The notes beneath the pieces were generated by a model. It saw nothing but the letters and a program-made list of their open reading frames with translations, searched no databases and was not told where the DNA came from. Below are positions 27,979 to 60,449 of a stretch of DNA of 64,000 nt, piece by piece. Origin of the DNA: Triglochin maritima (Eukaryota; Streptophyta; Magnoliopsida; Alismatales; Juncaginaceae); the NCBI GenBank assembly GCA_963682175.1, contig OY821775.1:31556053-31620052 (forward strand), in the 5' to 3' direction. A program made the translations under genes and the position numbers. Numbering within the stretch: position 1 is the first letter of the stretch; each line of letters begins with the position of its first letter.

Positions 27979-30388
27979 ATGGCTGCTCAATTCCGCGAGG
28001 AGGAGCAGTTGCTGGACCCACCTATTCCAGTTGTTGCACTTGTTCGTCCTGTTGTGGCTCCCATACCTCTACGTGATCGATGCTACCCGAGCCGTACCAC
28101 TCTAACCTCATGCATCGTATTACCAGAGGTGAATGGGAACCACTTTGAGGTTAAACCTCAATTCATTTCTATGCTCCCTTACTTCACTGAGAAGGGTGAC
28201 CCCTATATCTTTCTTTCTCAGGGAATTTGAGGAGGTCTGTGCTATGTTCAAGCTGCAATAACTTAGCAAAGACTCCATCCATCTTAGGCAAGTCCTTTTT
28301 GCACTAAAAGATGATGCGAAGAAGTGGTTGTACAACAACCAAGCGAATGCCTTTAGGACTTGGGATGAATTTCAATCTGCATTTCTCAAAAAGTACTTTC
28401 CAAATCATCGGACTCAAAAATTGAGGAACAAAATCAATTCGTTCTATAAACCTGAGACTGAAACATTTCATGAATATTTAGAGAGATTCAAGGAGCTACC
28501 ATCCTCATGCCCTCACCATGGCATCGAGTTGTGGCGCCTTGGTCGGATTGTCTACGAGGTTCTTCACATCCCGTCCCGAACGCTCCTTGAGTCCATGTGT
28601 CAAGGAGAGTTCAATGGAAAGGATGAAAGGGAGGCATGGGCTTTCCTAGAAGACCTTGCTGAGAAAACCATGCAATGGGAGAGTGTGAGGGAACCCCCAT
28701 CATCATCTAGCATAGGAGCGAGGATCGCAAATGCAATAGATCGGGTGCCACATTTGCTGTCGATACCACTAGGGCCACCGAGGCGCGCATGGCGGCCTTA
28801 ATGCGCCGTATGGATCCGATTGAGCTCCAAAACCAACAAGAGTGCGCCTCACATGTCCACATCTGGTCCAGTTCCTTGTCATTCATGTGGTATAATAGGT
28901 CATGTTGGAAGCGAGTGTGCGTCCATTCGTCCTGAGATGGAACATGTCAACGTCATCTATGATAGGGCTAGGAATGACCCATACTCATTATCTTATAATC
29001 TCGGATGGAGGAACCACCCTCATTTTTCATGCAACCCAAATAATGCCCCGGGTGGTCCTTCAGACTCCTCTCGGCCACCTAACCAACCACATCAACCTCC
29101 CATGCATGCACAATCATATCAGTCATCCCAAGCTCAAATCACCAATCAATTGAGTTTCCCAAATTCCAACAATATGGAAACCCGATTCAATTCGCTTGAG
29201 ACCATGACTTGTGGACTTGAAAACTCAATGAATTTTTTTATGTCAACCACAAGTCAAGTTCTCACTTCAAATAAGCAGACCATCAAATCTCTAGAGCTTT
29301 AGATCGGCCAATTGGCTCAGTCTGTACATGAAGGAGAGAGGGTCTCTGCCTCGCCAGCAACAACACATGCAAAATGAGAATGTGGTACCTCGGGGGTGGC
29401 AAGTGAACCATGTGGAGGAACCTGTTCACCATGTCAATGCCATTGTAACCTTAAGGAATGGAAAACAGGTTGACAATTACATTTCCTTGCCACCACCACC
29501 ATCTATGCTGCCCCTCAGTGGGAATGGTGGTGAAGAAGAGGCTGAGGGTAATACACCAACGCCTCCTTCTCAAGCACTGCAGAAAACCTACCTGTCAAAA
29601 GCTCCCTATCCCAGTAGGTTAACCAAAAAGCAGAGTGACACAATGGACAAGATATTAGAGGTGTTTAAGCAAATGAAGGTTAACATCCCCTTGTTGGATG
29701 TCATCCAACAAATACCTCAATATGCCAAAGTGTTAAAAGATCTCTGCACAACCAAGAGGAAGACCAATGTTCCTAAGAGAGCATTCTTAGTTGCAAATGT
29801 AAGCTCACTTTGGTCCAATCCCACCTACACAAAATACAAGGACCTTGGGTGTCCTACTATTCAATGTACGATAGGGGACACTAGCATGAGTAATGTATTG
29901 CTTGATTTAAGATCGGCGGTCAACCTCCTCCCAATTTCTGTTTATCAACAGTTGAACTTGGGATAATTGAAACCAACTAAGATCACCCTCCAATTGGAGG
30001 ATAGATCCATTCGTATTCCAAAAGGGATTATCGAGGACGTGCTTATCAAAGTTGGAGATTTTATATTTCCAGTCGATTTTGTCATCCTCGATACCAATCC
30101 TATTGCAAACACCCACTCTCAAACACCTTTGATTTTGGGTAGACCATTTCTGGCAACCTCCAACGCCTTAATTAATTGTAGAAATGGTCTCATGAAGCTC
30201 TCATTCGGTAACATGAGTGCCGAGTTTCGTGTGTTCAACTCTTGTAGGCAACAAGAGCTCACAAACCAACCTTTAAATCTCAATCTCTTCCACCAATTAG
30301 AGAAAGCACCGCAAAATCAACGAACACCCCTAACACCAATGCAACCTGTTGAGAATGTTTGTGGGCCCAGCGAAAACTCATTTCCTAT
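27979..30388 (+). pseudogene. Element K gag-protease (broken)
   Basis: The ATG at 27979 (MAAQFREEEQLLDPP) is the start expected from the family. The capsid domain runs to about 28800 (NGNHFEVKPQFISML; ALKDDAKKWLYNNQ; FLKKYFPNHRTQKLR; PSCPHHGIELWRLG). A knuckle CHSCGIIGHVGSEC (CX2CX4HX4C) lies at about 28878-28919. A linker and a retropepsin-like domain follow; its active site reads LLDLRSAVNLLP, with Arg for Gly, and RPFLATSNALINC and GLMKLSFGN come later. Lesions: a TTTC duplication near 28210, TAA near 28258, a frameshift near 28735, TAG at about 29300, TAA at about 29964. No RT follows; the frame instead continues, across solo LTR M, into the C-terminal domain. Confidence 0.85.
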
Positions 30389-31363
30389 TGATTGACATCA
30401 TTTCGTGCTTATATTTGTATCTTATATCCATTATCTTACACTTAAGCAATGCTATGTGATGAGTTTTTTGTTTAGTTTTCAGGAATAAATACATTTGAAG
30501 AGATGAACATAAAAGGACCCAAAAACTGGGAAAAAGGACTGAATTGTGAGATCTGGGGACAAAGATGCAAGGGAGAAGGACCTGAATGTAAGACATTTGG
30601 GGGGTGGAGTAATTAGTTTAAATATGTGTGAGTAGTTCCATCCGCATTTGGGGGGTGGAGTAATATGTGATATGATCATGTAGTGTATTAAGTGTGTGTT
30701 ATCTTTATCCCTTGAGCTTTATATGATTTCCATAACCATATAATGGGTTTTCACTTTTATCTTTTATATGCTAATGCTCTTGAATGAATCTTTGCTTATG
30801 CTTTGATGAGTGGACCTATTTTATGGGGAATGATAAGGTTAGGATATGGATGAAGTTAATATTGGAAACATAAGTTGTAGTGTATGTACTCTTGTTGCCT
30901 TTACCTTGGTTAATGTCTTGTATGTTTTAATGATATTGGGTTATCTTAATTCATATGGAGGCATAGTAGGGTCTAGTCTTTATACATGAGTTCATTTAGC
31001 TTCATTCCAATTATTGTATTGTATGTTTCAATGATGTAGTCTTATCTTAATTGATGTGGAGGCAAAATTGGATGTAGTTTTATGATTTAATGCACTACAT
31101 GTTGTGAGGAGCTTAATTGAACACACACACACACCTCTTTATATTCACATTACTTCTCTACCCCCTATGGGGTTTAGTTTTTATTGCTTATCTTTCATTT
31201 CCTTTTGCATTCTAGTGTAGTTAGTGTAATCAATCTTTCTCTCCCTTTTTTACCACTCGCCTTCGCACAATCCAGACGTCGACACACCTCCCAGTGGACG
31301 ACCCATATTTGCCACTGCTTCAACGCGGTCGTGCACTTGCGATTTAAATAAAACAATCAATCA
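30389..31363 (+). mobile_element. Solo gypsy LTR M inside K
   Basis: Begins TGATTGACATCATTTCGTGC and ends AATCAATCA, with near-identical target duplications CCTAT (30384-30388) and CCTGT (31364-31368). At 975 bases it is ~400 shorter than L's LTRs: the part with palindromes and TATA box is missing near 30597. Taking out the LTR and one duplication restores the K reading frame across the site, which confirms the boundaries. Confidence 0.85.
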
Positions 31364-31607
31364 CCTGTCTTTGCAATGCAACATAGTAAGCTGACATCAA
31401 ACATGAATGCCCAAAGGGAATGTTCGTTGCATGATTCCGTGGAGAGAATTAGTGAGGGGGACACACCTCAGCATATGCCCATTCCAGAAGGTGCATCACC
31501 CGTGTCCTAGGGCTATTGAGCCCTTTGAGCTTCAGATTGTCTCCAACAAAGACCCACCTACACCGAGCTTATGCTTCATGATATAAATGATGGTGGGAAG
31601 TCCTTGT
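31364..31607 (+). pseudogene. Element K C-terminal domain, first part
   Basis: Continues the K frame after solo LTR M: open from 31364 to a TAG at 31508, with two further stops before J begins at 31608. The last residues before J (HDINDGGKSL) line up with L's YIANEGIRSS. Sirevirus J then interrupts the frame. Confidence 0.65.
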
Positions 31608-31984
31608 TGTTGGTTTTTTGCCTTAATTTATGTTTTGATGATTCAATCATCCTAATCTAAATTCTGATCATGTAGAGTAGCACACATGTTGCATTGCACA
31701 TATATTGCTTTGTGCTAACCTCTACAGGTGATCAAGACTCTAGGAAGAAAGGAAAATCAAGTCAAGACATGTAATCAAGCTCTTTTGAAGACATGTATTT
31801 TGTATTTTCTTTGAGTTTTAGGAACTTGTGTAAATTGAGCATACTTGAGCTAAAAACTACTTAAACACACACTAGGTTCCTTATAGAAGTCACACACGAA
31901 ATTTCACAGAATTTGGACTTCAATAGATCACCCAAACTTAGACCGGAAAACACTAAACTTGAACTCTAACAATCTGCCCACATT

Positions 31985-32456
31985 CGGTCGACCGTAACAG
32001 ACTGTTCGGTCGACCGAGTGATCAATTATCCGGTTTGTGTTTTCACTGCCTAGTTTCGGTCGACCGTATGAACTTATTTTTCCGATCGTTTATTTTGTCG
32101 TATTATACCCAATGGTAGTATTCGTATTAACCAAATATACCCCAAATACATTTCATGTATCGGTCGACCGAGGACCTTGTTCGGTCGACCGAATATCTGT
32201 CTGTTGACAAACCCGAACCTCCTGGACAAAATCGGTCGACCGCAAGACCTTAGCTCGGTCGACCGAATTGATCATTGTTTTTCAACCCCAAAGAGCTTGG
32301 TGCAAATCGGTCGACCGAACCCTTTTCGGAGTTGGACTGATCACTTAAGTGTAGCTAAGTTGTAGTGTTGGGTGGTCGACCATTACCTAACCGGTCGACT
32401 GAACTGCATTCAAAACTGTCAAACGGTTGACCGTTCAGACCGATCCGGTCGACCGA
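31985..32456 (+). repeat. CGGTCGACCG palindrome cluster in J 5' LTR
   Basis: About eleven GTCGAC cores in ~470 bases by eye, most within CGGTCGACCG and often TTCGGTCGACCGAA. Spacing is irregular. Confidence 0.9.
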
Positions 32457-32552
32457 ATTAACTCAGAATTAGGTCCTGCGAGTTTCTGTTTTGTGTATCC
32501 TACACCAACACTCACCCAATCAACCCCAACAGATCTATTCTCTCTAATGCCT

Positions 32553-32561
32553 ATATAAAGA
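32553..32561 (+). promoter_or_regulatory. Likely TATA box of J 5' LTR
   Basis: TATATAAAG about 100 bases downstream of the palindrome cluster. The same order occurs in the 3' LTR (36425) and, as TATAAATA, in the E family. Confidence 0.65.
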
Positions 32562-33107
32562 GTTGTAAAACACATTTTAACACAACTCTCCCACTATATA
32601 CTTGTCCAATACATTAGAGAGAATCCCAAACACTCTAAGCCTCCGATTTCCACACTTAAGATCAATTCCAATCCTTCTCAAGTGTGCTCAAGTTTAGTGA
32701 TTGATTGTCCCACTCAAGTTTGTTGCTGTCAAAGAAGAGTAAAGGTTTCGGTGAAAGCCCGAAGCATCCCACTAGAATTGTGAGAAGTGGAGCCAAGCTC
32801 GACGAGGGTTGTTCGTGAGCTTGAAGATTGTAAAGGCGTTCTCTCCCGGCCCGGAACGATGAGTGGTTAGTGAAGTCATGAGTGGAGCTCAGTGATCCGA
32901 GCGGAGCTTGCAAGAGAGGATTAGGACCCGGGTGGGGTGCCGAACCTCTATAAAAATCCCCCGTCTCATTGTGGTTTGCATTTCTATTCTTTACTTGCTT
33001 GTTTGTTAGTTTAATTCCGCTGCATATCTTTGATAGATCAAACAAGTAGGTTATTAAGATTAATTGTGATTAGTATTGTGGACCCATAACCCACACGATC
33101 CTACATT

Positions 33108-33120
33108 TGATATCACAGCC
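33108..33120 (+). other. Element J primer binding site (mutated)
   Basis: TGATATCACAGCC, two changes from TGGTATCAGAGCC. Confidence 0.75.
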
Positions 33121-33157
33121 TTGTTAGCTAATTCTCATACTTAATAGTATTTTTAGC

Positions 33158-34801
33158 ATGGCCTCTACTTCATCTAATCACATAAAATGATTATGCACAA
33201 CTCGACCTCCCTTGCTAAATGGGTCAAATTATGATTATTGGAAGAATAGGATGAAGATTTTCCTAATTTCTAATGACCTTAAGTATTGGATGTTTCTTCA
33301 AAATCCATACACACCCCAAATGAAGATGAATTAGATTCACTTACAAGACCCAAAATGAAAGAAATCAAAATGAATTCAAAAATTATGAACATCTTGTATT
33401 GTGGCCTTAATGAGGATGAATATAATAGGATTAGGGGTTTTGTAAGTGCATATGAAATATGGCATAGATTGCAAATGCATCATGGGGGGATAGCAAAACT
33501 AAGGAAACCCGCATTAGTCTCCTCATGCATAAATATGAATTTTTTTCTATGCAAATCGGTGAAAACATAAGGAAAATGAACACTCGCTTCACCAATATTA
33601 CTAACTCTCTTTTGGTTCTTAGAAGAAGATTAAATGAAGGAGAGATGATAAGGAAATTCCTGTGGTCGCTAAGTCACGATCGGGAAGATAAGGTGGTCAC
33701 AATTGAAGAAGCACACGACCTTTCCCAACTCAAGATGGAGGAGTTAATTGGAAATCTCATGGCTTATGAGCTCCAAATTAACCATCGAAAGGAGAAGGAA
33801 GCCTCCAAGAACAAACCAACCTTGGGATTACATGGAAATATTGACCAACCAAGTAGGAGTGTAGAAGATGAGGACATTGAAGTCCTAGCCAAAAACTTCT
33901 TCAAATACCTCAAGAATGATAAAGAAGAAAAGAATGAAAGAAGAGATAGAAGAAGTGAAAAGAGAGAAAAGAAGAAGGAGAAGGAAGAGAGTGAGAATGA
34001 GAGGAGAGAAGGGGAGAAGAAAAAGGAGAGAAGGGAGAGGAGAAGAGAAAAGGAGAAGAGCAAGAGAAGAGAAAGGAAGGAGGAAGCACACAAGGCTACA
34101 TGGGATGACTCTTCATTTCCATCATCGTCGTCGTCTTCCTTCCAAAGTAGAAGAGAGGTGGCTCACTCATGCTTCATGGCTGTTGAAGATCAAAGTGAGG
34201 TAGAATCTAACTCATGTTCTAATAATTCATGCTCAACTAAGTCATATTATAGTGATAGCTCAAACTCTAGTGCAAATAATGAAAATTATACACATGATGA
34301 GCTTCAAAATGCATTCCATGACATAGTTAAACAATATGAGATCATTTGTGAAAAGAATAAAAGTGCTAGAAAGCTAATCAAAGATCTCCAAAGCCAAATT
34401 GAAACATGTATGAATGAGAAGAATGAGGTGGTTGCTAGACTTGAAAATAATGCATCAAATCTTGATAAATTAAAAGCAACACCTATAGATTGTGAACAAC
34501 TAGATCTTCAAGCTTGCAATGTGCAATGAAGAAAAGATTTAGAAAGGTTCACACATGTAACTAAGATGCTTAACATGCTATTAGGAAGTCAAAGACAATC
34601 TTTGCAAACCATGGTTTAGGATTTAATGCTAAATTGAAAAACCATGCATCTTATACAACTTTAAATGGAAAGCATTTAGTTGTAAAGCATACTTCCTCAA
34701 ATGTGTGGGCTCCTAAAACCAAAATAGTTTGGGTTCCCAAAGCTAACATTCAAGGACCCAAACTTGTTTGTGTACCTAAATCTACACTTGTAGGTGCTTG
34801 A
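33158..34801 (+). pseudogene. Element J gag (broken), no zinc knuckle
   Basis: The ATG at 33158 opens MASTSSNHIK, interrupted by a stop; then NGSNYDYWKNRMKIFL, the UBN2-type Gag start. Frameshifts occur near 33310 and 33487 (a G-run). The long open part 33525-34529 carries MHKYEFFSMQIGENIRKMN and EEAHDLSQLKMEELIGNLM. A run of about 60 residues that is almost all Glu, Arg and Lys (33915-34090) follows, then KATWDDSS, a Ser-rich part, and a heptad-like coiled coil with DELQNAFHDIVKQYEIICEK. A nonsense codon at 34527 and a frameshift precede the VWVPK-type end. The final stop at 34799 is at the same place as in F. It has no CCHC knuckle. Confidence 0.85.
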
Positions 34802-35458
34802 GGAAGAAATCGGTGGTGACCGGGCGAGCTTAAGAGTCAAATTTAAAGCCGGGTGCATCACCGAATGAATGGTAGAACCAATTCAAACTTCAAGTTGGTA
34901 TATTTTCATATCCTCTAAATTTTTCGATAAAATTGGTTCTAGTCTAGGATACATGCTCAATTGACATATCATTTACCCATTCATTGCAAATCCTAAATGT
35001 TTGAATAACATCCATACTTTTTAGAGTCAAATTATCTAAATGGATGTAAAAAGGGGAAATGAAAACATCACATGCTAAATTGTAGTATTTGCTTGATGTT
35101 AATAGGGGAGAATTAAGAATTGAACTTAATTGAAAAATCGTATTCATATCGATAGGGGGAGCTTATTGAATATCATTTTCTTAGAGTAATGAAGTGCAAA
35201 ATTTAGGGGGAGCAACTTCATTACAAGACATCCACATTGAACTTCAATCGTATAAACTTTCTTATATAAATATCATTTTTTTGATGGATGTCAAAGGGGG
35301 AGAGATAATTAAGGGGGTAAAACTTGGAATTTGAGTTGAATTGAACAAAAAATATGCACATCCATAGGGGGAGCATTTATATGCATAGATTACTTATAAA
35401 AATTCCATGTATTAAGATATAGTTAAGATATAGGTTGCCATCATCAAAAAGAGGAGAT
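34802..35458 (+). other. Element J 3' non-coding region with repeated polypurine tracts
   Basis: Purine runs of the form AGGGGGAG recur at about 35152, 35204, 35293 and 35365, and AAAAAGAGGAGAT (35446-35458) stands directly before the 3' LTR. Multiple polypurine-like tracts upstream of the 3' LTR are a known Sirevirus trait. Confidence 0.8.
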
Positions 35459-36979
35459 TGTTGGCTTTTTTGCCTTAATCTATGTTTTGATGATTCAATC
35501 AACCTAATCTTAATTATGATCATGTAGAGTAGAACACATGTTGCATTGCACATATATTGCTTTGTGCTAACCTCTACAGGTTATCAAGACTCAAGGAAGA
35601 AAGGAAAATCAAGTCAAGACATGTAATCAAGCTCTTTTGAAGATATGTATTTTGTATTTACTTTGAGTCATAGGAACTTGTGTAAATTGAGCATACTTGA
35701 GCTAAAAACTACTTCAACACACACTAGGTTCCTTATAGAAGTCACACACAAAATTTCACATAATTTGGACTTCAATAGATCACCCAAACTTAGACCGGAA
35801 TACACTAAACCTGAACCCTAATAGTCTGCCCACATTCGGTCGATTGTAAACGACCGTTCGGTCGACCGAGTGATCAATTATCCTGTTTGTGTTTTCACTG
35901 CCCGAATTCGGTCGACCGTATATGCCCTTTCGGTCGACCGTATGAACTTATTTTTCCAACCGTTTATTTCGTCGCATTATACCCAACGGTCGTATTCGTA
36001 TTAACCAAATATACCCCAAATACATTTCATGTATCGGTTGACCAAAGACCTTGTTCAATCGACCGAATATTTGTCTCTTGACAAACCCGAACCTCCTGGA
36101 CAAAATAGGTCGACCGCAAGACCTTAGTTCGGTCGACCGAATTGATCATTGTTTGTCAACCCCAAAGTGCCTGGTGTAAATCGGTCGACTGAACCCTTTT
36201 CAGAGTTTGACCGATCACTTAAGTGGACCTAAGTCGTAGCGTTGGGCGGTCGACCGTTACCTAATCGGTCGACCGAACTGAGTTCAAAACTGCCAAATGG
36301 TCGACCGTTCAGACCGATCCGTTTGACCGAATTAACTCAGAATTGGGTCCTGCGATTTTCTATTTTGTGTATCCTACACCAAGACTCACCCAATCAACCC
36401 CAACAGATCTATTCTCTGTAATGCCTATATAAAGAGTGGTAAAACACATTTTAACACAACTCTCCCACTACATACTTGCCCAATACATTAGAGAGAATCC
36501 CAAATACTCCAAGCCTCCAATTTCCACACTTACGATCAATTCCAATCCTTCTCAAGTGTGTTCAAGTTTAGACAGTGATTGTCCCACTCAAGTTTGGTGC
36601 TATCAAAGAAGAGTAAAGGTTTCGGTGAAAGCCCGAAGCATCCCTCTCGGATTGTGAGAGGTGGAGACAAGCTCGGCGAGGGTTGTTCGCAAGCTTGAAG
36701 ATTGTAAAGGCGTTCTCTCCCGGCCTGGAACGGGGAGTGGTTAGTGAAGTCGTGAGCGGAGCTCGGTTATCCGAGCGGAGCTTGCAAGAGAGGACTAGGA
36801 CCCAGGTTGGGTGCTAAACCTCTATAAAAATCCCCCGTCTCATTGTGGTTTGCATTTCTATTCTTTACTTGCTTGTTTGTTAGTTTAATAACGCTGCATA
36901 TCTTTGATAGATCAAACAAGTAGGTTATTAGGATTAATTGTTATTAGTATTGTGGACCCATAACCCACACGATCCTACA
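35459..36979 (+). repeat. Element J 3' LTR
   Basis: 1521 bases, closely similar to the 5' LTR, with a palindrome cluster at 35836-36330. Confidence 0.9.
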
Positions 36980-36984
36980 CTTGT

Positions 36985-37295
36985 TGGATGACTTAGGGAG
37001 AAGCCCCATTCTTAGTGATGCAAGTTTGCTGCATCCAACGAATGAGCTTGAGGAACTCATTTTGATGCACCCACCTATTGGTTGGAGGGTTTTGTTCGAT
37101 GAGCAAACAAACGCTAGTGAGGAAACACAACTTCACTCATTCATGTTGCCTACACCCAACCAATATCATGAGGGGTTCGAGTCTTTCAGCTTTGACCTTT
37201 CACCCGTCATGACACCTCAGAGTACCAGTGAAGTTTGCCCATCTCGGCAAGTCTCTGGTCCTCATAAGTCGATGTTCTCATTTGATGTTCCTTGA
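36985..37295 (+). pseudogene. Element K C-terminal domain, second part (RT-derived?)
   Basis: Removing J and one CTTGT copy joins this frame to 31607 without a shift. It is open to a stop at 37293. It aligns with the end of the L protein: LLDDLG against SLEDTLG, then HPPIGWRVLFD (37068-37100) against HQPVGWRVWID, then FMLPTP against FLLPLP. The GWRV..D core is that of the Athila-type RT start. Upstream stops make the whole K protein non-functional, though this segment itself is open. Confidence 0.7.
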
Positions 37296-38415
37296 CCAAA
37301 TGATTATGAGAATATCTTTGTTGATGAATGTATCTTGTAAAAAAAAGAAAAGAAAAAAGAAAAAGTAATAAAAGACTTTCACGTATTTGTATCCCTTCTT
37401 TAGGATCTCACAGGTTTTGGTGGAATTCGGGTTTGTGTCCATCCGCATAACCATGAACTTCCTTTTTTGGGTTTTGCGTGTGTTTAACATGTGCAAAACC
37501 GTTGGGAGGCAAAGTAAAAAGAAAGATCCCAAAATTGTCTTGAACTTGATGTAATAGGATACCTAGTATACCGACTTTAGGTATTATTGAGTCGTTAGGA
37601 TGAACCCCGGTTTTCCCTCGGTGGGCGAGTAATCATAGGGTTTCAATACTCAAACATTTAAAGTAGTCCACCTTGAACCTAGTGAGTCAATTATTCGTGT
37701 CGGTTAATATAAGGAAATTTGTTGTAGTCAAGGACCCTTTAAATATTGTTTTGAGAAATTAAGTGTAATGGTTTTGGTTCATGTGTAAATAAGAAATAAG
37801 TGAGTAGGTGTTCTCTGTTCTCGCGCGGCTCCTATAACTCGGGAAATTAGGTCTGAGGGTTCTTTGTGCCTGGTGCCTTTGAGACATCTGACTTGGGATG
37901 CACTGACCGAACTCCCGTTACATGGGTGGTAGGGATTGCCCTATGTGGAGATTTGGGGAAAGGTGTACGTGATAATGTAAGTCCTCATAGGCAATGATGC
38001 ATGAAATCTGACCCTTGGAGAATGAAACTCTAACTAGTAAGAAAAACAAGAAAAGCCAAAAAAATGTAGGAAAAGAAACAAAAAGAAAAAAAGTAATGCA
38101 AATAAGAGCCTTAATGGTCCTTACACTTTGTATCACTTGAGGATGTTGAGGTTGTCCATGTCTTGCACTTAAGTCCTTAATCAACTTTCACGAATGATTC
38201 ATTAGGCTAGGTGTGTGTATTGATTACATATATAGAGTCGGCCCGTAGCATTACTGCGTCCAATGATCGACAAGATGAGTCATCGAGTCATGTAGCTAGG
38301 TTGAATAATGCATCTTTGTTCGGATTTTGTGGGTATATCCGCTGAAAACCCTCAGGAGACAACACTCCTCCTCTTTGGCGACAAGGTGGTTTAATGGCTT
38401 GTTGCACGTGCTAAG
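37296..38415 (+). other. Element K 3' untranslated region (interrupted by L)
   Basis: Matches the region after the L reading frame: 'gttttgcgtgtgtttaacatgtgcaaaaccgttg...' style blocks, the CTCACTTGG and GGGTGGTAGGGAT blocks, and A-rich purine runs at 37338-37370 and 38041-38097. It stops at CTAAG (38411-38415), the target site of L, and resumes at 45503. No gene seen. Confidence 0.75.
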
Positions 38416-38784
38416 TGATTGACATCATTTCATGCTCATATTTGTATCTTATATCCATTATCTTTCACCTAAATAATGCTATGTTACGAGTTTTATGTTT
38501 AGTTTTCAGGAATAAATAAATTTGAAGAGATGAAGCATAAAAGGACCCAAAAGCTGGGAAAAATGACTGAATTGTGAGATCTGTGGACCAAGATGCAAGG
38601 AAGAAGGACCTGAATGCAAGACCGAAGGACCTAAGAGCAAAACAGAATACTCCTCACCATCATGGGGAGTATTTTGGCAATTCTATTCGGGTCGGAGCTC
38701 CAACGTGCAAAATAGATGCATCAAATACCAACAAAGCCTTCCAGAAAAGCCCACAAGAAATTCCAGAGCGATCCGGACACTGTA

Positions 38785-38823
38785 GACCGCTAATTAGCGG
38801 TCCAAGACCGCTAATTGGCGGTC
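38785..38823. repeat. Twin 18-bp palindromes in L 5' LTR
   Basis: GACCGCTAATTAGCGGTC (38785-38802) is a perfect palindrome. Three bases on, GACCGCTAATTGGCGGTC (38806-38823) is the same with one mismatch. The pair recurs at 44464-44502 in the 3' LTR, diverged in K and H LTRs, and as a variant pair in the leader at 39975-40013. Confidence 0.92.
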
Positions 38824-38942
38824 ACATTTGGCCCAAATGCGCTCAAATGTCTCCTGGACTTGTATTAATGTTCGTTTAGGCTATTTTTGGTGTTTGTTTA
38901 GTCCCACATCGGGGTATTGTCCCGTTTGCCTTTTTCCATGGC

Positions 38943-38950
38943 TATAAATA
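38943..38950 (+). promoter_or_regulatory. TATA box of L 5' LTR
   Basis: TATAAATA about 120 bases after the twin palindrome, in the same context as in the other LTRs of the family. Confidence 0.75.
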
Positions 38951-39823
38951 GAACTCTACACCTTCCATTGTAATCACTCCATATTTTAAGTTGTTATTCT
39001 TCCTACTATAAGTGAGGCCTTGAAGCACACACTAAAGTAGGAGGATGCTACTTTTAATGTGAGTCATTTTAATACAAGTTTTCTTTATTATGTTGTTTGT
39101 TTTATGTTTCTTGTTTTACTTTGCTTAATCTCATTTCATTAGTTTTATTAGCTTAGTTAATATGCTTTCTTTGTTTAGTTTAATAATTAGTGTAATGTTT
39201 AGTGAGTAGTTCCATCCCCTTTGGGGGGTGGAGTAGATGTACATACATGCATTAGAGAATGGGATGAATGCTTTAATTTCAATGTGTTGATTAAACATGA
39301 ATGTATGCTTGCTTGTTTAGGATAGAATTTATAACTTGATGAGTTTTGTCAAAATGATTAGACACCTCTCATGCTTGTTTAGGTTCTGAAATAAACAACT
39401 TGCATATGTAAATGTTAATCAACCAAGTTGGTGAATAGATTGATAGGTTTTGCCATAACATTTAGACACTTCCTATGCTTGATAAACACCACCTTCATGT
39501 GCTTAAAGAATGTATTCTACACCCACCTCTTTGCTTGTGTGCACTCACTCCACCCCTTAGGGGTTTTCCATTCCTGAAATTCCAGTACTTCTATTTTGTT
39601 CTAAGTTTAGTTTTTATTTGATCATTTATTTCTTTGTTTCGCATTTCGTACTTCTTAGCGTAGTTTAGTGTAGAGTAGCGTAACCAACTCTCTTCTCCAT
39701 TATTTTCGCCACTTGATTTCGTGCAAACAAGAGGCTACTCACCTCCCTGAGGGCGACCCGTACTTGCCACCGCTTCATCGCGGCCGTGCACTTGCGGTTT
39801 AATTAAAACGTTCAACAAGTTTT

Positions 39824-39841
39824 TGGCGCCGTTTCCGGGGA
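39824..39841 (+). other. Element L primer binding site
   Basis: TGGCGCCGTTTCCGGGGA, one base from the Athila-type tRNA-Asp site, six bases after the LTR end. Confidence 0.9.
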
Positions 39842-40971
39842 CGTGCCAGTCCAGACTCTTGTTTAGACGATTCGAGTGGATTTGATTTTTTTTTTTAGTT
39901 TTGTGTTGTCTCAGGACATTTGGGATTCAAGGATAAAGCAGCAGGAAAAATTTGGGAACACTTCAAGCCCTCAAGACCGCCAAATAGCGGTCTGGGACCG
40001 CTGTTTGGTGGCCTGGTGAGACCTTTTCACCCCCAGTTTTCTTCTGTTTGTTTCTATTTACAGTTTAGTTATCTGGGAGCCCAATTTGGCATGTGTGAAC
40101 CTATAGTTTGCTCCCAGATCAATAAATAACCAATCAACCCTCCTTTAATCAACTTGGACATTAAAACCCAAAGCAAAAGATTAGGCATTTGCTATGTTTA
40201 GGTCATGCATCATCTAGTAATGACTTGAGCATGTCAATTGTCTTCTCTTAGTTTTAATCTTTGTCGTTGATTGCTGGAGCGAGGTACGCATTCCTTAACA
40301 CTCATTCACGCATTAGGACATTCATTAGTGAGTAAGGTTTGCATCGAAACAAGAGTGAGGTGAGTGTTTGCTTGGTGAGTTGCTTGCTAGCTTAAGGATC
40401 AAAACATCTTAAGGGGCACCACCTATAGTCTTCAAAGATAAGGCGGGGGATTTCATCACCCCTTCCTTAGCCCCAAAAAGCACACTCAAGTAAAGCCTTA
40501 ATCTAAAAGCAAGTAGACATTGGCCATTAGGACTTGGGCGCATTAGGAGAGTTAACCGGTCACGACCGTCATAGCCTGATCGGCGTCGCCCACTTTGTCG
40601 ATAGTAGGAGAGACGAGATCTCCGGATCTTGGCTCACTTGCTGGGCATTGTGGTATTCATCGTAGGGAGGTGAGGCGTGTTGAGGCCGTGTGACCTCGCA
40701 GTTAGGCGTCGTCTAGCTGTAAGGACCCATAGCTAGCCTAAGCTTGTTTGAGCCGTGTTTGCTAGACTAGGCTTCTAACCTCACCCTTTACCCACGCTAG
40801 TTTTTAGGGATTCGTCCCTTCTCCTCTGAGTCATCTTCTTCTCACCTACTTCTACGTTTTAGTCTCCTCCCCTTTACACTCTCTGTTAGCGTTTTAGGGT
40901 CGAGTCGAGCACTTTTTGCGAGGTTGGCCTCGTGGTGGTGAGAGTGATCGACTCGAGAGTTCTTTGTCGAG
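39842..40971 (+). other. Element L leader
   Basis: Non-coding. A variant twin palindrome (GACCGCCAAATAGCGGTC at 39975-39992 and GACCGCTGTTTGGTGGCC at 39996-40013) lies ~130 bases after the primer site. A block at 40608-40760, including GAGATCTCCGGATCTTGG, is shared with K and H. Confidence 0.8.
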
Positions 40972-42483
40972 ATGGATGGTTACATGGGCGACCATCCCTA
41001 TCATTGTTGGGACCAGGACAATTCTCCCTGGTACTCCGGACCCATGCAACCTGGGGTGGCTCAGACAAACACCCCGTATGGTTGGGATAATCTTCATTGT
41101 GTGACTGAGCAATCTTCATATAGGGGTGATATGAGAGAGGCACCGACTGCTAGATCTCCATCTAGTAACGTCGGATCATATGTTGGTCATCAAACTGAGA
41201 CATAGCAAGAACCTTTGGCCTCTTTCATGCTTGTGGTAGAAGACATGAGTGCACCGGTGGCTCCAGTAGCCGTACCGTGTCGCTGTTGTGGGTTGAGTGG
41301 TCATGTTTGCGGGGAATGTCCTTATGTTCCCTCAGAGCCTGAGTATGAGCATACCTTTTCCCAAAATGCTCAATATGACCATTACGCATCCACGTACAAC
41401 CCGAGAAGGATGGATTCATGGGGAGACAATTCTTATTCAAATTCTTATACATCACTCCCACCCCAGTACCCTCCTTCTGAATATCCTGAATTCTACCAAC
41501 ACCCCACGACCAATCATTGGACTCATTCTCAGCCCATCACCACCCAACCCATCCATTTCCCAAATTCTGACATGAACCTCACAGTTGACCCCAAACTTGA
41601 TTCTTTGGAACAAGCCCTCCAAACGTTCATGGAAACCACTCAAAATGTGTTGAAGTCCAATCACGATTCCCTGCAAACTATGGAAATGTATGTGGGTCAA
41701 ATTACACAACAATTAAGTAAACGTGAGGAGGGTGACATTTCTTGTCAACATGTGGATTCATCGTTTGATATCGAACCACCACCACATTCACAAATTCGAA
41801 GCACAATCTTTCAGAGTCAATCTCTTAGTCAGTCTGAGGGACTTGGGGTTTCAATTCACGATCACATTGTGGGGGATTCGATCCGAATTGAGAATAACAT
41901 GGACCAATTTCATTATGAGTCGGCACAGGATTGTGCCCTATCTTTTTGTCCCATGGCCCTTGAGCCACATGATCTTCATGTTGTGCCCCTTAAGGACTCA
42001 CCTCTGGTGGAGCAAGAGCTCCCTAGTACCCTCAATTTCAAACCACTTGATGAGATTTTGCCTCTCACTATTGTTCCTGATCATCTTGGAAATGATGGAA
42101 CATCAAACAACTACATTGCAAATGAGGGTATTAGGAGTTCCTTAGAGGATACCTTGGGTATGAGACCCACTTTTTGTTCGCCTGGTGAGTCGGACATGCC
42201 TAACGAGTTTCTTGACCTCGTTCCGGCTCACCAGCCAGTTGGTTGGAGAGTTTGGATTGACGATCATAACTTCAGCAGCGCAACAAAAGATTTTCTTCTT
42301 CCGTTGCCCCTTATTTCCCAAACTCTCGAGAGGTTCAAGCTCTTTCAGTTTGATCCTTTGATTGAGACGCCTTTGCGTCCAATTCATGAACCTCTCATTT
42401 CATCTTATGCTCTTTGTGAAGGGGGCCCACGCATGAGTATTCTGGCCCCGCGTGGTGTCATGTTCCCTTTCCAAGTACATTGA
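40972..42483 (+). CDS. Element L protein: zinc knuckle plus RT-derived C-terminal domain (one in-frame TAG)
   Basis: The ATG at 40972 (MDGYMGDHPYHCWDQ) opens a frame of 503 codons with one TAG at 41203-41205. If that stop is respected, a 422-codon frame remains from 41215. The N-terminus is Tyr/Pro/Asn-rich and looks disordered. A knuckle CRCCGLSGHVCGEC (41278-41319) has CX2CX4HX4C spacing. LDSLEQALQTFMETTQNVLK (about 41595) is a coiled-coil-like part seen in Athila Gag tails. The C-terminal half has no Gag match. Its block at 42241-42336 has GWRV, then ID, AT, PLP and LER at exactly the spacing of the Athila-type RT start. No YxDD site is present. I infer an RNA-binding Gag-like protein carrying an RT fragment. 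The function is unknown. Confidence 0.75.
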
Positions 42484-44094
42484 CCCACTTTTGAGATTCC
42501 CATTTGATGTCTTTTGACAAATGAAGATGGGAACTTATGATTATACATAGTTATATTCAAAAAAAAAAGAGTGTAATAAAAGACTCCTGCAGTGAGCATC
42601 GATTGTTGTGGGCCCCAACCCTTGTGTACTTGGGCCCAATCTCTTCACGTATTTATCTCCCTTCTTCAGCTTCTCACAGGTTTTGAGGGAATTTGGGTTT
42701 GTGTCCATCAACATGACCCTGAACGTCCCTTTGTACTTCATGTTGGTGAGATCTTTCCTTTTTCATGCATGTATCCCTGTAGTATCTTGTTCACATTCAT
42801 TGAGGACAATGCATGAAGTAGGTGTGGGCGGTGTTTTACGTGTGTACATAGTCGAGTCTTTTTCTTTTGGTTTTATTTTCTTTTGTTTGTACTGCTAGGG
42901 TCATGTTCGTGTGCCACATTTAACATTGATATATCTGCTTGCCATGATCCTTGGGTGACTTGTCTTCTTTTGCTTGCCGAGTGCTTTAAAGTTTTCACAT
43001 TTCTTTCAAAATCTTCATGTGTTTGCGAAAGAAAATGTTTTTGTGGGTTTTGCGTGTGTTTAGCATGTGCAAAACCGTTGAGAGGCAAAGTAAAAAGAAA
43101 ACTCCCAAAATTGTCTTGAACTTGATGCATTAGGATTTCTAGTTTATTGGCTTTAGGTCTTGTCGAGTCGTTAGGATGCACCCTGGTTTTCCCTCAGGGG
43201 GCGTGTAATCATAGGGTTTCAGTACTCAAACATTTAAAAAAGTCCACCCTGACCCTAGTGAGTCAAATAATTCGTGTTTGTGAGTATAAGGAAGTTTGTC
43301 GTAGTCGAGGGCGCTTAATCTCTTTTTGTGAAACTTAAGTGTAGGGGTTTTGGTTTCCATATAGATAAATAAGTGGTGTTCTCTCTTCTCGCACGGCTCC
43401 TATCACTCGGGAAAGTAGGTCTGAGGGGACTTTGTGCCTGGTGCTTTCGAGTCATCTGACTTGGGATGCGCCGACCGAACTCCCGTTACACGGGTGGTAG
43501 GGATCGCCCTATGTGGAGATTTGGGGGAAGGTGTACGTGATAGTGTAAGTCCTCATAGGCAATGATGCACGAAACCTGACCCTAGGGAGAATTAAACACC
43601 AACCAATAAAATGCTCCAAAGAAAAAGAAAAAAAAAAGAAAAAAAGGAAAAAAAGAAGAAAAAAAAGTCAAATAAGAACCAAAATGGACTTTACACATTG
43701 TATCACATTCAGAAGTTAAGGTTGCCCATGTCTTTCACTTAAGTCCTTGACTAACTCTCACGAATAACTCATTAGGCTAGGTGTGTGGACCGATTACATA
43801 TGTAGAGTCGACCCATAGTATTACCGCGTCCCATGATCGACAAAATAAGTCCAACGAGTCGTGTAGCTAGATTGATTAATGCATCTTGTTCGGATTTTGT
43901 GGGTATATCCGCTGAAAACCCTCAGGAGACAACACTCCTCCTCCTTGGCGACATGGAGGTTTAACGGCTTGTTGCACGTGCTAAGTGCAACCGTGATTCC
44001 TACGAAAGTGAGTTAGGATTTCTTGTTTTTTTTCGCATGCTTTTCTCTTTCTTTGTTTTGCTCGGGACTAGCAAAAGTTAGTTGTGGGGGTATT
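42484..44094 (+). other. Element L 3' region and polypurine tract
   Basis: Non-coding, shared with K. Includes an inverted CATTGAGGACAATG (about 42799-42812), an A-rich purine tract at 43617-43672, and GTTGTGGGGGTATT (44081-44094) directly before the 3' LTR as the polypurine tract. Short frames such as 42608-42898 lack support. Confidence 0.75.
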
Positions 44095-45497
44095 TGATTG
44101 ACATCATTTCATGCTCATATTTGTATCTTATATCCATTATCTTTCACCTAAATAATGCTATGTTACGAGTTTTATGTTTAGTTTTCAGGAATAAATAGGT
44201 TTGAAGAGATGAAGCATAAAAGGACCCAAAAGCTGGGAAAAAGGACTGAATTGTGAGATATGTGGACCAAGATGCAAGGAAGAAAGACCTGAATGCAAGA
44301 CCGAAGGACCTAAGAGCTAAACAGAATACTCCTCACCATCATGGGGAGTATTTTGGCAATTCTATTCGGGTCGGAGCTCCAATATGCAAAATAGATGCAT
44401 CAAATACCAACAAAGCCTTTCAGAAAAGCCCACAAGAAATTCCAGAGCGATCCGGACACTGTAGACCGCTAATTAGCGGTCCAAGACCGCTAATTGGCGG
44501 TCACTTTTGGCCCAAATGCGCTCAAATGTCTCCTGGACTTGTATTAATGTTCGTTTAGGCTATTTTTGGTGTTTGTTTAGTCCCACATCGGGGGATTGTC
44601 CCGGTTTGCCTTTTTCCATGGCTATAAATAGAACTCTTCACCTTCCATTGTAATCACTCCATATTTTAAGTGGCTATTCTTCCTACTAGAAGTGAGGCCT
44701 TGAAGCACATACTAAAGTAGGAGGATGCTACTTTTACTGTGAGTCATTTTAATACAAGTTTTCTTTATTATGTTGTTTGTTTTATGTTTCTTGTTTTGCT
44801 TTGCTTAATCTCATTTCATTAGTTTTATTAGCTTAGTTAATATGCTTTCTTTGTTTAGTTTAATAATTAGTGTAATGTTTCGTGAGTAGTTCCATCCCCT
44901 TTGGGGGGTGGAGTAGATGTACATACATGCATTAGAGAATGGGATGAATGCTTTAATTTCAATGTGTTGATTAAACATGAATGTATGCTTGCTTGTTTAG
45001 GATAGAATTTATAACTTGATGAGTTTTGCCAAAATGATTAGACACCTCTCATGCTTGTTTAGGTTCTGAAATAAACAACTTGCATATGTAAATGTTAATC
45101 AACCAAGTTGGTGAATAGATTGATAGGTTTTGCCATAACATTTAGACACTTCCTATGCTTGATAAACACCACCTTCATGTGCTTAAAGAATGTATTCTAC
45201 ACCCACCTCTTTGCTTGTGTGCACTCACTCCACCCCTTAGGGGTTTTCCATTCCTGAAATTCCAGCACTTCTATTTTGTTCTTAGCTTAGTTTTTATTTG
45301 ATCATTTATTTCTTTGTTTCGCATTTCGTACTTCTTAGCGTAGTTTAGTGTAGAGTAGCGTAACCAACTCTCTTCTCCATTATTTTCGCCACTTGATTTC
45401 GTGCAAACAAGAGGCTACTCACCTTCCTGAGGACGACCTGTACTTGCCACCGCTTCATCGCGGCCGTGCACTTGCGGTTTAATTAAAACGTTCAACA
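44095..45497 (+). repeat. Element L 3' LTR
   Basis: 1403 bases, nearly identical to 38416-39817; twin palindromes at 44464-44502 and TATAAATA at 44623-44630. Followed by the second CTAAG. Confidence 0.92.
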
Positions 45498-45502
45498 CTA
45501 AG

Positions 45503-47317: not shown

Positions 47318-48200
47318 CTCCCTAAGGAACTGAAACACAATTTTTTTGGTCCCGACAGGTCATTTCCGGTTATTATTTCATCGATGTTGACTGGTCATCA
47401 AGAAGAACGTCTGATTCAAGTCCTAAAGGAGCACAAATCAGCTATTGGGTGGTCCTTGAAGGACATTAAAGGGACAAGTTCCGACGTCGTGCACCACCAC
47501 ATCTTTATGGTGGATGAGGCACGACAACGTCCCGACCCACAGAGGCATTTAAGTCCAGCCATGACAGAAGTAGTTAAGAAAGAGATCATCAAATGTTTAG
47601 ATCATGGCATCATTTTTCCCATTTCGGACAGTACTTGGGTAAGTCATGTCTAGGTTGTGCCCAAGAAGTTGGGTATCACTGTTGTCCAGAATGACAACAA
47701 TGAGTTGGTACCCACACGACTTCAAACTGGGTCGCGAGTTTGCATTGACTAAATGAAGTTGACACGGTCACACGTAAGGACATGTTCCCTCTACCTTTCA
47801 TCGACCAGATGTTGGAGAGACTCGCTGGGCACGCCTATTATTGTTTCCTTGATGGTTATTCGAGGTATAATCAAATCTTAGTCACCCCAGAAGACCAGAA
47901 GAAAACTGTGTTCACTTGTCCTTTTGGGACGTTTGCTTATAAACGGATGCCTTTTGGACTATGCAATCTACCAACAACATTCCAACGTTGAATGTTGAGT
48001 ATCTTTTCCGATATGGTTGAGAACTTCCTTCATATTTTCATGCATGATTTCTCGGTTCATGACACCTCCTTTGATGAGTGCTTGCACCACCTGAGCCTTG
48101 TTCTGAAGAGGTGTCCAGAAACGAACTTAGCCCTTAATTAGGAAAAGTATCATTTCATGTTTATAAAAGGCATCATTTTGGGTTACGTGTTATCTCAATA
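47318..48200 (+). pseudogene. Element H reverse transcriptase, N-terminal part (broken)
   Basis: Athila-type RT. 47384-47653 reads LTGHQEERLIQVLKEHKSAI and IKCLDHGIIFPISDSTWVS. After a stop, NELVPTRLQTGSRVCID (about 47699-47749) is followed by a one-base frameshift, then MFPLPFIDQMLERLAGHAYY and RMPFGLCNLPTTFQR (47782-47991). The active-site region reads FMHDFS where FMDDFS is expected (about 48040), so the first catalytic Asp is His. The text ends at about 48200, joined to copia RNase H sequence. The connection and RNase H domains and integrase of H are missing. Confidence 0.8.
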
Positions 48201-52690: not shown

Positions 52691-53862
52691 TGAAGGGAAT
52701 GTGTTCTAAAAGTTTTACTTTTAAATGTCAATTATTATGAATTGAATGAGAAATCATTTTGTTCCTTGTTTCTGTTATTCGTCTTTTAGAAGTGTTAAGG
52801 AAGAGCCTCTTGGTCCTTAACCGTAGAGCTCTAAAAGATATTGGTTTACATAAAACAAAAGATATTCGCAATCATGGTAATTAACATGGGACATTAATTA
52901 CCGGGATAAGATTGTCGTGTTTGGTCATAGATCATTGTAGCTCTACAAGTGAGTGACAACACGGGTATGCAAAAAAGGAAAATATTACTTTTGTATACTG
53001 AATAGACCTAATAAGTAAAATATTATAGAAATGTGTTTCTGTGTCATTAATATTTTACTGTGTCTTTGGTCCTTTGATATGAGACTTATATCTGATCACT
53101 TAAGGAATACTTAATTAGATCAGTGTCTTAAACTATCCATAAGTGTAGTGTAAAGGCATTGGTTGGTTAAGTACAACTTTTGTTGGAGAAGATAGTTAGT
53201 CAAAAGACTATCATTGCCCCTCTTAATTGAGTGATGATATTAGTGGGCCCCTTGATAAAGCAAAGTTATAATGTGCACAATGTGATTTGAGTTAAGTCAC
53301 ATATTTATAACTAGCTTAAAGAGATCAAGAAATGAATACTAATACAAAGATGACACAATACTACTTTGTGTGTATTCTTAATATCATGAGGCAAGGGACG
53401 TACACAAGTGGTGCACTCCATCACTAAATGGATCGGGCTTTGGTTCGAGTGGAATTAATACATCTAACTAATTGGGAGCTATAATGTGTAGCTAGATACC
53501 GCTTATAGCTTGTGATATTAAGCTCTTAATATCACTACCGACTTAGTTTAGATCCTCCCATAGGTCACACCGCAAAACTGGGAAACAAGAAATGAGGATT
53601 TTGAGTTCATAAGATGTGTTGGGTTTCATGTAGAAAATATGACACATGGGGTGAACAAGCAAAATCAAAATTATGTTGTGATTAATAACATAATTAGAAT
53701 CTAAATAAAATTCATATGTGATGTAAATATTATGGGGTGTAATGATTGATCATTGCATAGGATAATATGTTACATAAGTTGTGAATTTACTACTAATCCC
53801 GATATGTCAAATTTTGTAGGGGTTAAACCGAAATTTGACAAGTCTGCAAAACAGTGCTCCAA

Positions 53863-54092
53863 CGGTCGACCGGTTAGCAGTAAACGGTCGACTGATCGGG
53901 CACGGTCGACCTGACATGTCTCGACCGATAACAGGGAATTTTCATCTGTTCGAACGGTCGACCGAAAGTAATCGGTCGGTCGACCGAACATCGAGATGGA
54001 ATAATTCCTGTTACGAACGGTCGACCGAGTTATTGAACGGTCGACCGAAACATGGTTCGAGCGGTCGACCGAACCTCCAAACGGTCGACCGG
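53863..54092. repeat. CGGTCGACCG palindrome cluster in E 5' LTR
   Basis: About nine GTCGAC cores in 230 bases, most in AACGGTCGACCGAA context. The 3' LTR cluster (61621-61826) has fewer because of a 24-base deletion between two repeats. Confidence 0.9.
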
Positions 54093-54271
54093 TCCAGACG
54101 GTTTTCAACAGAATTAATTTAAGAATTAATTAGATCATGCATGGAATTGGTCCATAATTGATTTAATTCGTGGCTAATATTATTTATTATTGAATAATGG
54201 ATGGTTAGATGGAATTTTGCATGAAATCATGGGCAAGGGGTTGCACATGAATAGGTAATTTGGACAGTGCT

Positions 54272-54279
54272 TATAAATA
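54272..54279 (+). promoter_or_regulatory. TATA box of E 5' LTR
   Basis: TATAAATA, ~180 bases after the palindrome cluster; repeated at about 62006 in the 3' LTR. Confidence 0.7.
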
Positions 54280-54742
54280 CAAGTTTATCTCATTACCTCC
54301 AAAATTAATTCATTATTACTTATGCAAAAATTCTCTCTCCATAAATCTCCACGAAAATCCCTTAATTCTTGAGTTTAGTTTTAGTTCTTAACAGATCATC
54401 TTCTCAAGGGAATTAAAGAGGGGTTAGTAATTGCATTCTAAACCCTATCCGAGATTGAGAGACTAGCTTCCCTCTCTCCGATCTTGTTTAGAGTTTGGTG
54501 AATACTCGGAGGCATCCGGCGCAGCGAGGAGCATCCCCAACGTCTCCGAATCTTCAAAAAGTTTTAGAGAACTTCTAGGTATGAATTTCGGAGCCCATAT
54601 TTGTTTTAATAAAGTTTTGAAACTAGTTATTGAAACAAATTGATGCATGCATGAAATAAATCATAGAAAATTGTAAATTGATCCTTATTGTGCATAAAAA
54701 TTTCGAAAATAAATATGTACAATTAAACATGAAATCCTACAG

Positions 54743-56250: not shown

Positions 56251-57321
56251 ATGTCGAACATCCAACCTATCGTACGATCCATGATAGAAAAACACCCTTT
56301 AGGAAATGATGGCTCAAACTTTATTAGTTGGCAACTCAAACTCAACATCATGTTAAAGTTTGAGAAACTATTAGACATTTTGGAAGGTCCAATCCCAAAG
56401 TGGAATGAGAGATTAACCGATGAAGAGAAAGAGGCTAAAGCCAAGTGGGAAGACCAAGAGAACCAAGTTCACGGTCTCATGCTAGCGTCCATGGGTGACT
56501 CGCTTCAAACAAAATACTTGGATTCAAAACCCAAGAAGACCATGGAGGCTTTATCAAAGATGTTCATGGATAGTGCCCGAAAGGAGCGCTATAAGACCAC
56601 CATCGCACTCACAAGGTGTCACATGGCGGAGGGAACATCGGTATCCATGCATTTTCTCACGATGCAAGGGTACCTTGAGAAGTTGGCAAAGCTCTCTTCA
56701 CCAATGCCCGAGGACATTGTTGCAGATATGATTCTTGGCTCTCTAGCCACGTCCTTCAAGGACTTTGTGATGCATTACCACGTGCGTGAAAAAGGGGTGA
56801 GTCTTGAGGAGCTGCACAACGCTCTCAAAACTGCGGAAGTTGACATGGGCAAGGGTAGGGACAAGCATGTCCTTGCCGTCCATGGGAGGAGCCAAAAGAT
56901 TGGTAAAGGAAAGGGCAAATCTACCAAAAGTTGTGGTTCAATCAAGAGAAAGGGAGTAGGAGGTGCTCGTGCGAGTGCCTCGAGGGGGAAATCTCAGAAA
57001 TCTCCAACTCCCAATACGGAGTGCTTTCACTGCGGTGAAAAAGGACACATTTGCCCAAATTGCCCCAAGTACAAGGAAGACCTTGACAACGGAGTGATTG
57101 AACGTCGGCGCCCCAAAAAGGCCAAAGGTATATTTGTTATTGAAATAAATTTAGCCACCTCTGTCCAGGATTGGGTAATTGATACCAGATCTTGTGCTCA
57201 TATAGTTTCTAATGTGCAACTACTCATGGATAGGAAGGAACTCGTCAGGAACGAGGTAGAATTGAAGGTTGGAAATGGTGCGAACGTGTCTGCGGTTGCA
57301 CAAGGTTCTGTGGTGCTCTAA
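56251..57321 (+). pseudogene. Element E gag and protease start
   Basis: I take the ATG at 56251 (MSNIQPIVRSMIEKHPLG) because the open residues before it (from 56113) are hydrophobic and unlike Gag. Residues about 20-230 form a copia capsid region (SNFISWQLKLNIMLKF; LDILEGPIPKWNE; FKDFVMHYHV). A basic stretch precedes the knuckle CFHCGEKGHICPNC (57022-57063). The protease site reads DTRSCAHI (57181-57204), with Arg in place of the Gly of DTG/DSG, which should inactivate it. A TAA at 57319 ends this part; the same frame then continues. Confidence 0.85.
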
Positions 57322-60364: not shown

Positions 60365-60449
60365 TATGTAATGGGGTTTACCCTAGTTATTATTGTTTTA
60401 TACATTGAGTATGTATGTGAAAGAAAACTTTAATAATAAGTGGAAGATT

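Follow-up and report, generated by a model that had tools for sequence, protein, structure and literature searches.

Element L and Its Coding Capacity

The window analyzed here is a stretch of 64,000 nucleotides from Triglochin maritima (contig OY821775.1, positions 31,556,053 to 31,620,052 of the forward strand; all coordinates below are those of the window). It contains element L, a long terminal repeat (LTR) retrotransposon at 38416–45497, whose long gene is the subject of this study. The 5′ LTR (38416..39817, + strand) and the 3′ LTR (44095..45497, + strand) are 98.1% identical, and the element is flanked by a target-site duplication (TSD), CTAAG, that could be read directly on the left (38411..38415) and on the right (45498..45502). 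Just 3′ of the 5′ LTR lies a primer-binding site of the TGGCGCC type (TGGCGCCGTTTCCGGGGA, 39824..39841, + strand), also read directly, which we take to be the tRNA-Asp type of Athila. A stretch rich in purines ahead of the 3′ LTR (44081..44094, + strand) was read as the polypurine-tract region. All of the features by which an LTR retrotransposon is recognized (paired LTRs, TSD, primer-binding site and polypurine tract) are present in L.

Only one open reading frame (ORF) of at least 150 amino acids was found within L, and its upstream end is broken by a TAG codon. A Pfam scan that covered this main frame and seven other L peptides detected no capsid, protease, reverse transcriptase (RT) or integrase domain. 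The peptides scanned thus lack the set of domains that would identify an autonomous Athila element (capsid, protease, RT palm, RNase H and integrase), and a hidden Markov model (HMM) of Athila-type RT found nothing above background in L apart from the block described below. Similarity to Gag places L in the Athila lineage: its knuckle and coil match the Gag of element J, and its knuckle also matches that of element H, the two larger elements in which L is nested. (H itself we take to be Athila-type; some of its RT matches bear plant gag or RT names.) The RT fingers in L offer only 46 residues for placement in an RT tree. L is a non-autonomous LTR retrotransposon of the Athila lineage (Ty3/gypsy). 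An earlier first-pass annotation, made from the sequence alone, had described L as non-autonomous, Athila-like and recently mobile; all three points are upheld, the third by the identity of the LTRs.

The Open Reading Frame and Its Gag-Derived Half

The same annotation had treated 40972–42483 as a single open frame, which is incorrect. An upstream part of 77 codons (40972..41202, + strand) is ended by the TAG at 41203–41205, where the related protein P0001 (see below) has no stop, and the main open frame comprises 425 codons plus the stop codon (41206..42483, + strand), with its first ATG at 41227. Because of the TAG, full-length protein is probably not made from the copy of L in the window.

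The first half of the main frame is derived from Gag. It contains a CCHC zinc knuckle, C-x2-C-x4-H-x4-C (41278..41319, + strand), in a region that aligns with the Gag proteins of J and H, and a Gag-type coiled coil (41605..41730, + strand) that aligns with J Gag. When residues encoded by 41206–41730 were compared with J Gag, the alignment scored 156 and covered both knuckle and coil; the comparison with H Gag scored 106 in the knuckle region, and in neither case was the score reached by any of 1000 shuffled sequences. The start of the frame (40948–41202) had no clear likeness to the Gag of J or H, the scores being reached by 63 and 182 of 1000 shuffles, respectively.

A capsid domain is readily recognized in J Gag (28262..28798, + strand; Retrotrans_gag, E = 3.3e-18) and in H Gag (E = 1.3e-14), whereas Retrotrans_gag was absent from the main L frame and the seven other L peptides in the Pfam scan. 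At the DNA level, L and J are 88.5% identical over 40504–40763; this identity fades beyond 40763, and a weak likeness (56% over 139 bases) reappears at the knuckle. Such a pattern fits a deletion that would have removed the capsid from L.

The RT Block

The C-terminal part of the frame begins with a linker (42004..42192, + strand), followed by the RT block (42202..42339, + strand) and a tail (42340..42480, + strand). The first-pass annotation had noted a block with the residues G-W-R-V, I-D, A-T, P-L-P, I, Q and L-E-R, matching the start of Athila RT over 32 positions without a gap. These residues are indeed present in the frame ending at 42483, and the match is longer than was first thought, extending over 46 residues. 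Of these, 21 are identical to the RT consensus, compared to at most 6 of 46 in the next-best register.

An HMM was made from 43 of the 120 Athila-type RT fragments listed among 1052 matches, chosen because they extend beyond the block on its upstream side. It aligns to 42202–42339 of L without gaps, over profile positions 6–51. L scored 17.3 bits and the related protein P0003 scored 19.8 bits, and none of 5000 shuffles reached either score. The matches of two other relatives were weak: 5.3 bits for the relative at the J locus (2 of 5000 shuffles) and 0.2 bits for P0004 (92 of 5000 shuffles). All four family members (L, P0003, the J-locus relative and P0004) begin at position 5 or 6 of the RT profile. 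Against a background of 2035 six-frame peptides of at least 20 residues from the window, L ranked third; the two RT pieces of H ranked above it, and the fourth peptide scored 6.2 bits. The H pieces carry the landmarks that the first-pass annotation had pointed out there, GSRVCID in the first (47654..47749, + strand; 25.7 bits) and PLPFIDQMLER in the second (47749..47988, + strand; 155.4 bits), and RVT_1 matched H at 47764–47991 with an E value of 7e-7.

Profile–profile comparison agreed with this result. An alignment of the four-member family matched the RT alignment in hhalign with a probability of 95.7 and a score of 55.9, while 299 of 300 column-permuted decoys scored 24.9 or less. The one remaining decoy scored 133 over 7 aligned columns, and was judged to be an artefact. 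When the window was searched in reverse with a profile of the family block, the H RT pieces came first among the peptides outside the family, with E values of only 0.11 and 0.43. Furthermore, at 10 of the 13 positions that are invariant among the four members the residue is that of the RT consensus, compared to 11 of 33 variable positions (Fisher p = 0.009). A chance likeness, first suggested by the J-locus relative, had been considered and was dropped after the HMM, shuffle, hhalign and invariant-site tests.

By these sequence comparisons the match is real, and we conclude that the block in L is descended from RT. The first-pass description, in which a zinc-knuckle protein carries a fused remnant of the RT fingers, is supported. 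The similarity stops at RT-profile position 51, and the catalytic palm motifs were not found. The loss of the active site, also proposed in that description, is upheld, and the RT stub would be non-catalytic.

The origin of the linker is less clear. It may derive from the connector between protease and RT: the P0003 linker matched the H connector at a level reached by 1 of 300 shuffles, while those of L and P0004 did not get under a reporting cut-off of 6 of 300, and a linker HMM scored against the connector was equaled by 73 of 5000 shuffles (546 of 5000 for a whole profile of three members). Descent from the connector is therefore only suggested by the sequence. In the tail, L and P0004 are identical at 40 of 48 residues, and no other peptide in the window matched a tail profile above background.

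Relatives and Conservation of the L Protein

Three relatives were found in Joint Genome Institute (JGI) data, where they are known as proteins only. P0001, found by protein search, has 326 residues and aligns with L at 77% identity along 249 residues. P0003 (158 residues, 87% identical) and P0004 (225 residues, 69% identical) were found with a two-sequence profile. L, P0003 and P0004 share the residues at their C-terminal end. No relatives were found in viral contigs, bacterial and archaeal genome contigs, or plasmids. The first 11 residues of P0004 resemble what we take to be a Copia RT motif, and its frame may thus start in a different element and cross the junction with it.

A fourth, more diverged relative of the C-terminal part lies in J (36984..37292, + strand), with 103 open codons and 35% amino acid identity. 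An upstream piece of it (31503..31559, + strand) precedes an inserted element and has a stop next in frame.

Whichever two of L, P0003 and P0004 are compared, conservation is lowest in the RT block. Between L and P0004, for example, 25 of 47 residues are identical in the block, compared to 43 of 63 in the linker and 40 of 48 in the tail. Block (18 of 47) and tail (14 of 38) are about equally conserved between L and the J-locus relative. A working finger fold has thus not been singled out for preservation. The RT stub is thus, as far as these alignments go, not the most protected part of the protein, yet its RT-like core positions have been kept.

Over 101 codons of the C-terminal part, L and the J-locus relative differ at a proportion of 0.68 of silent sites (pS) and 0.43 of replacement sites (pN; Fisher p = 7e-4 on rounded counts), a contrast that comes from one pair, aligned by protein and near silent saturation. 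Because pN is below pS with so diverged a relative, long-term constraint on the L-family protein is likely. In simulations of neutral evolution at the overall divergence of this pair, 0.485, 0.4% of 500 runs retained both the score observed for the pair and a frame with zero stops, and none did so at 0.68. The fraction rose at lower divergence, to 4.8% at 0.35, 12% at 0.25 and 21.4% at 0.153, the last being the level of the 3′ untranslated region (UTR).

Predicted Structure

The 425-residue frame was modeled with AlphaFold2 (AF2) from five sequences. The mean predicted local distance difference test (pLDDT) score was 38, and the sole helix predicted with high confidence, residues 134–175, coincides with the coil. 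Outside the coil the model was uninformative, and the RT block had no confident fold (pLDDT about 30).

Nested Elements and History of the Locus

L is part of a nested stack of elements that extends over 22557–48200. J (25405–46668, TSD AACAA) is inserted in H, between gag and protease, and in turn holds both L (TSD CTAAG) and a third element at about 31608–36982, whose LTRs are 91.5% identical (TSD CTTGT). J also contains a piece of an L-type LTR (30389–31361), between its protease remnant and the C-terminal module, which could reflect LTR recombination. This piece, at which no TSD or primer-binding site was seen, leaves the precise composition of J uncertain.

In the 3′ untranslated DNA, L (42644–43987) and J (37378–38417) are 84.7% identical (about 84–85% in two stretches), compared to 51% DNA identity in the adjoining coding part. 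Since the 3′ UTR is far closer than the coding DNA, L and J look mosaic, and the contrast suggests either recombination or a constrained cis region. Recombination among Athila elements has been reported in Arabidopsis (PMC2410132).

The order of the parts in L is knuckle, coil, linker and RT block. At the J locus, capsid, knuckle and protease-like sequence come first, and the C-terminal module follows them at the place expected for the beginning of RT. Most simply, Gag-Pol would have contracted step by step: pol beyond the fingers would have been lost first, and capsid and protease would then have been lost in L.

Elsewhere in the window, two LTR-like sequences (52691–54741 and 60449–62475) are 96.8% identical, and a peptide between them (57022–57066) has another CCHC knuckle, suggesting a further recent LTR element. 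Direct repeats of about 2 kb each at 11515–13500 and 17105–19097, 91.9% identical, are probably the LTRs of another element.

Discussion

We favor the explanation that the long gene of L is a contracted Gag-Pol remnant, that the element is mobilized in trans, and that the protein serves as an RNA-binding accessory protein, and we consider this reading as a whole to be fairly probable. The enzymes needed to copy L would come from an autonomous relative in the Athila lineage, one that recognizes the LTRs and primer-binding site of L. An intact protein, as judged from its motifs, would bind the RNA of the element through the knuckle and multimerize through the coil, acting as an accessory protein similar to nucleocapsid. 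The RT stub would then have survived as part of this accessory protein and not as a piece of an enzyme. The first-pass annotation had suggested that the protein might be an RNA- or RT-binding adaptor or a dominant partner of the autonomous enzyme, and such a role is possible. A further-reaching proposal is that non-autonomous plant retrotransposons of a lineage including L encode a dedicated trans-acting protein, RNA-binding and self-associating, that evolved from Gag-Pol by losing the capsid and enzyme domains while keeping the RT-finger stub, that has been under selection at the protein level across lineages near saturation of silent sites, and that steers the RNA of the element to the RT of a partner or controls that partner. 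This joint proposal we put forward only tentatively, and would sooner expect at least one part of it to fail.

Several observations weigh against a conserved, functional protein. The frame in the window is interrupted by a nonsense codon (codon 78 of 40972–42483), and the relative at the J locus is itself broken upstream, by a stop and by the inserted element. Collections of predicted proteins favor intact frames. The pN/pS contrast derives from a single pair near silent saturation, neutral runs pass more often at lower divergence, and the overall confidence of the AF2 model is low. The RT assignment has its own weak points: a Pfam search of the C-terminal part identified no family in any of the four members, a search of solved-structure profiles with the C-terminal family gave no match, whole C-terminal profiles left the H RT pieces at background level in the window, and two of the four members scored weakly with the RT HMM.

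The most serious rival is that the frame is a passenger left by an internal gag-pol deletion, open only because the copies are young and without a function as protein, so that L moves purely by its cis signals. In its favor are the nonsense codon in a recently inserted copy, the lowest conservation falling on the RT block in every pair among L, P0003 and P0004, the confinement of AF2 confidence to the coil, and the frequency with which low-divergence simulations stay open. However, the C-terminal parts of L and the J-locus relative are near silent saturation; even so, they can still be aligned, have stayed open and show a lower pN than pS. P0003, P0004 and L also have the same end residues, and we regard a pure passenger as unlikely. 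Starting instead from the resemblance itself, one could suppose that the likeness to RT is accidental and the C-terminal part an unrelated domain. The block was originally chosen by eye from a 64-kb window, and the lack of a Pfam or solved-structure match, the weak RT scores of the J-locus relative and P0004, and the background-level H RT pieces in the whole-profile search all speak for this. In addition, pairwise tests of the L block gave a match to a frame at 48167 that is unrelated, at a level reached by 1 of 300 shuffles, for which reason such small pairwise tests were not relied upon. The larger shuffle tests, the window background, the profile–profile comparison and the enrichment at invariant sites all argue against coincidence, as does P0003, which was found without reference to RT and outscores L against it, and we consider coincidence very improbable.

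The remaining alternative also grants the protein a function, but one of restraint: a Gag fragment with a knuckle and no capsid might poison the assembly of the partner's particles or occupy its RT. By analogy, Ty1 p22 is to our knowledge the nearest precedent for such a role. L does retain only the C-terminal part of Gag, with no capsid found in the scanned peptides. Nevertheless, an inhibitor would hamper the movement of L as well, and the RT block is badly kept in P0004; we consider restraint improbable, if less so than a chance resemblance.

How LTR elements without pol are maintained, and whether the proteins that they encode aid an autonomous partner, exploit it or hold it back, is a question that has been raised for Athila (PMC2410132). 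The L protein, in which a Gag fragment with no recognizable capsid is fused to an RT stub and which seems to be conserved at the protein level, is a concrete case with which to test it. In Arabidopsis, non-autonomous Athila families without pol have Gag-only or Gag-Env ORFs on which purifying selection acts, and are presumed to borrow the enzymes of other families (Marco and Marin 2008, PMC2410132). L resembles them in its Athila lineage and lack of pol. Those families carry a Gag ORF, with or without Env; no capsid domain was found in the ORF of L, which has in addition a relic of RT fingers and a new tail. No description of a comparable fusion between knuckle and RT stub was found in the open-licence literature searched, which is weak evidence for novelty. 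The soybean element Diaspora shares with L its relationship to Athila and Calypso and the lack of env, but has a full gag-pol ORF (PMC1142308). TR-GAG elements, which code for a GAG protein and are capable of movement (PMC8704663), share with L the LTR structure, the single ORF of Gag origin and a presumed movement in trans, whereas no recognizable capsid (Retrotrans_gag) is present in L. Finally, the restriction factor p22 of Ty1 is, like the L protein, a C-terminal Gag fragment from a retrotransposon (PMC4599808); Ty1, however, produces p22 itself, from an alternative transcript, whereas the L protein would come from a separate, non-autonomous element and carries material from Pol.
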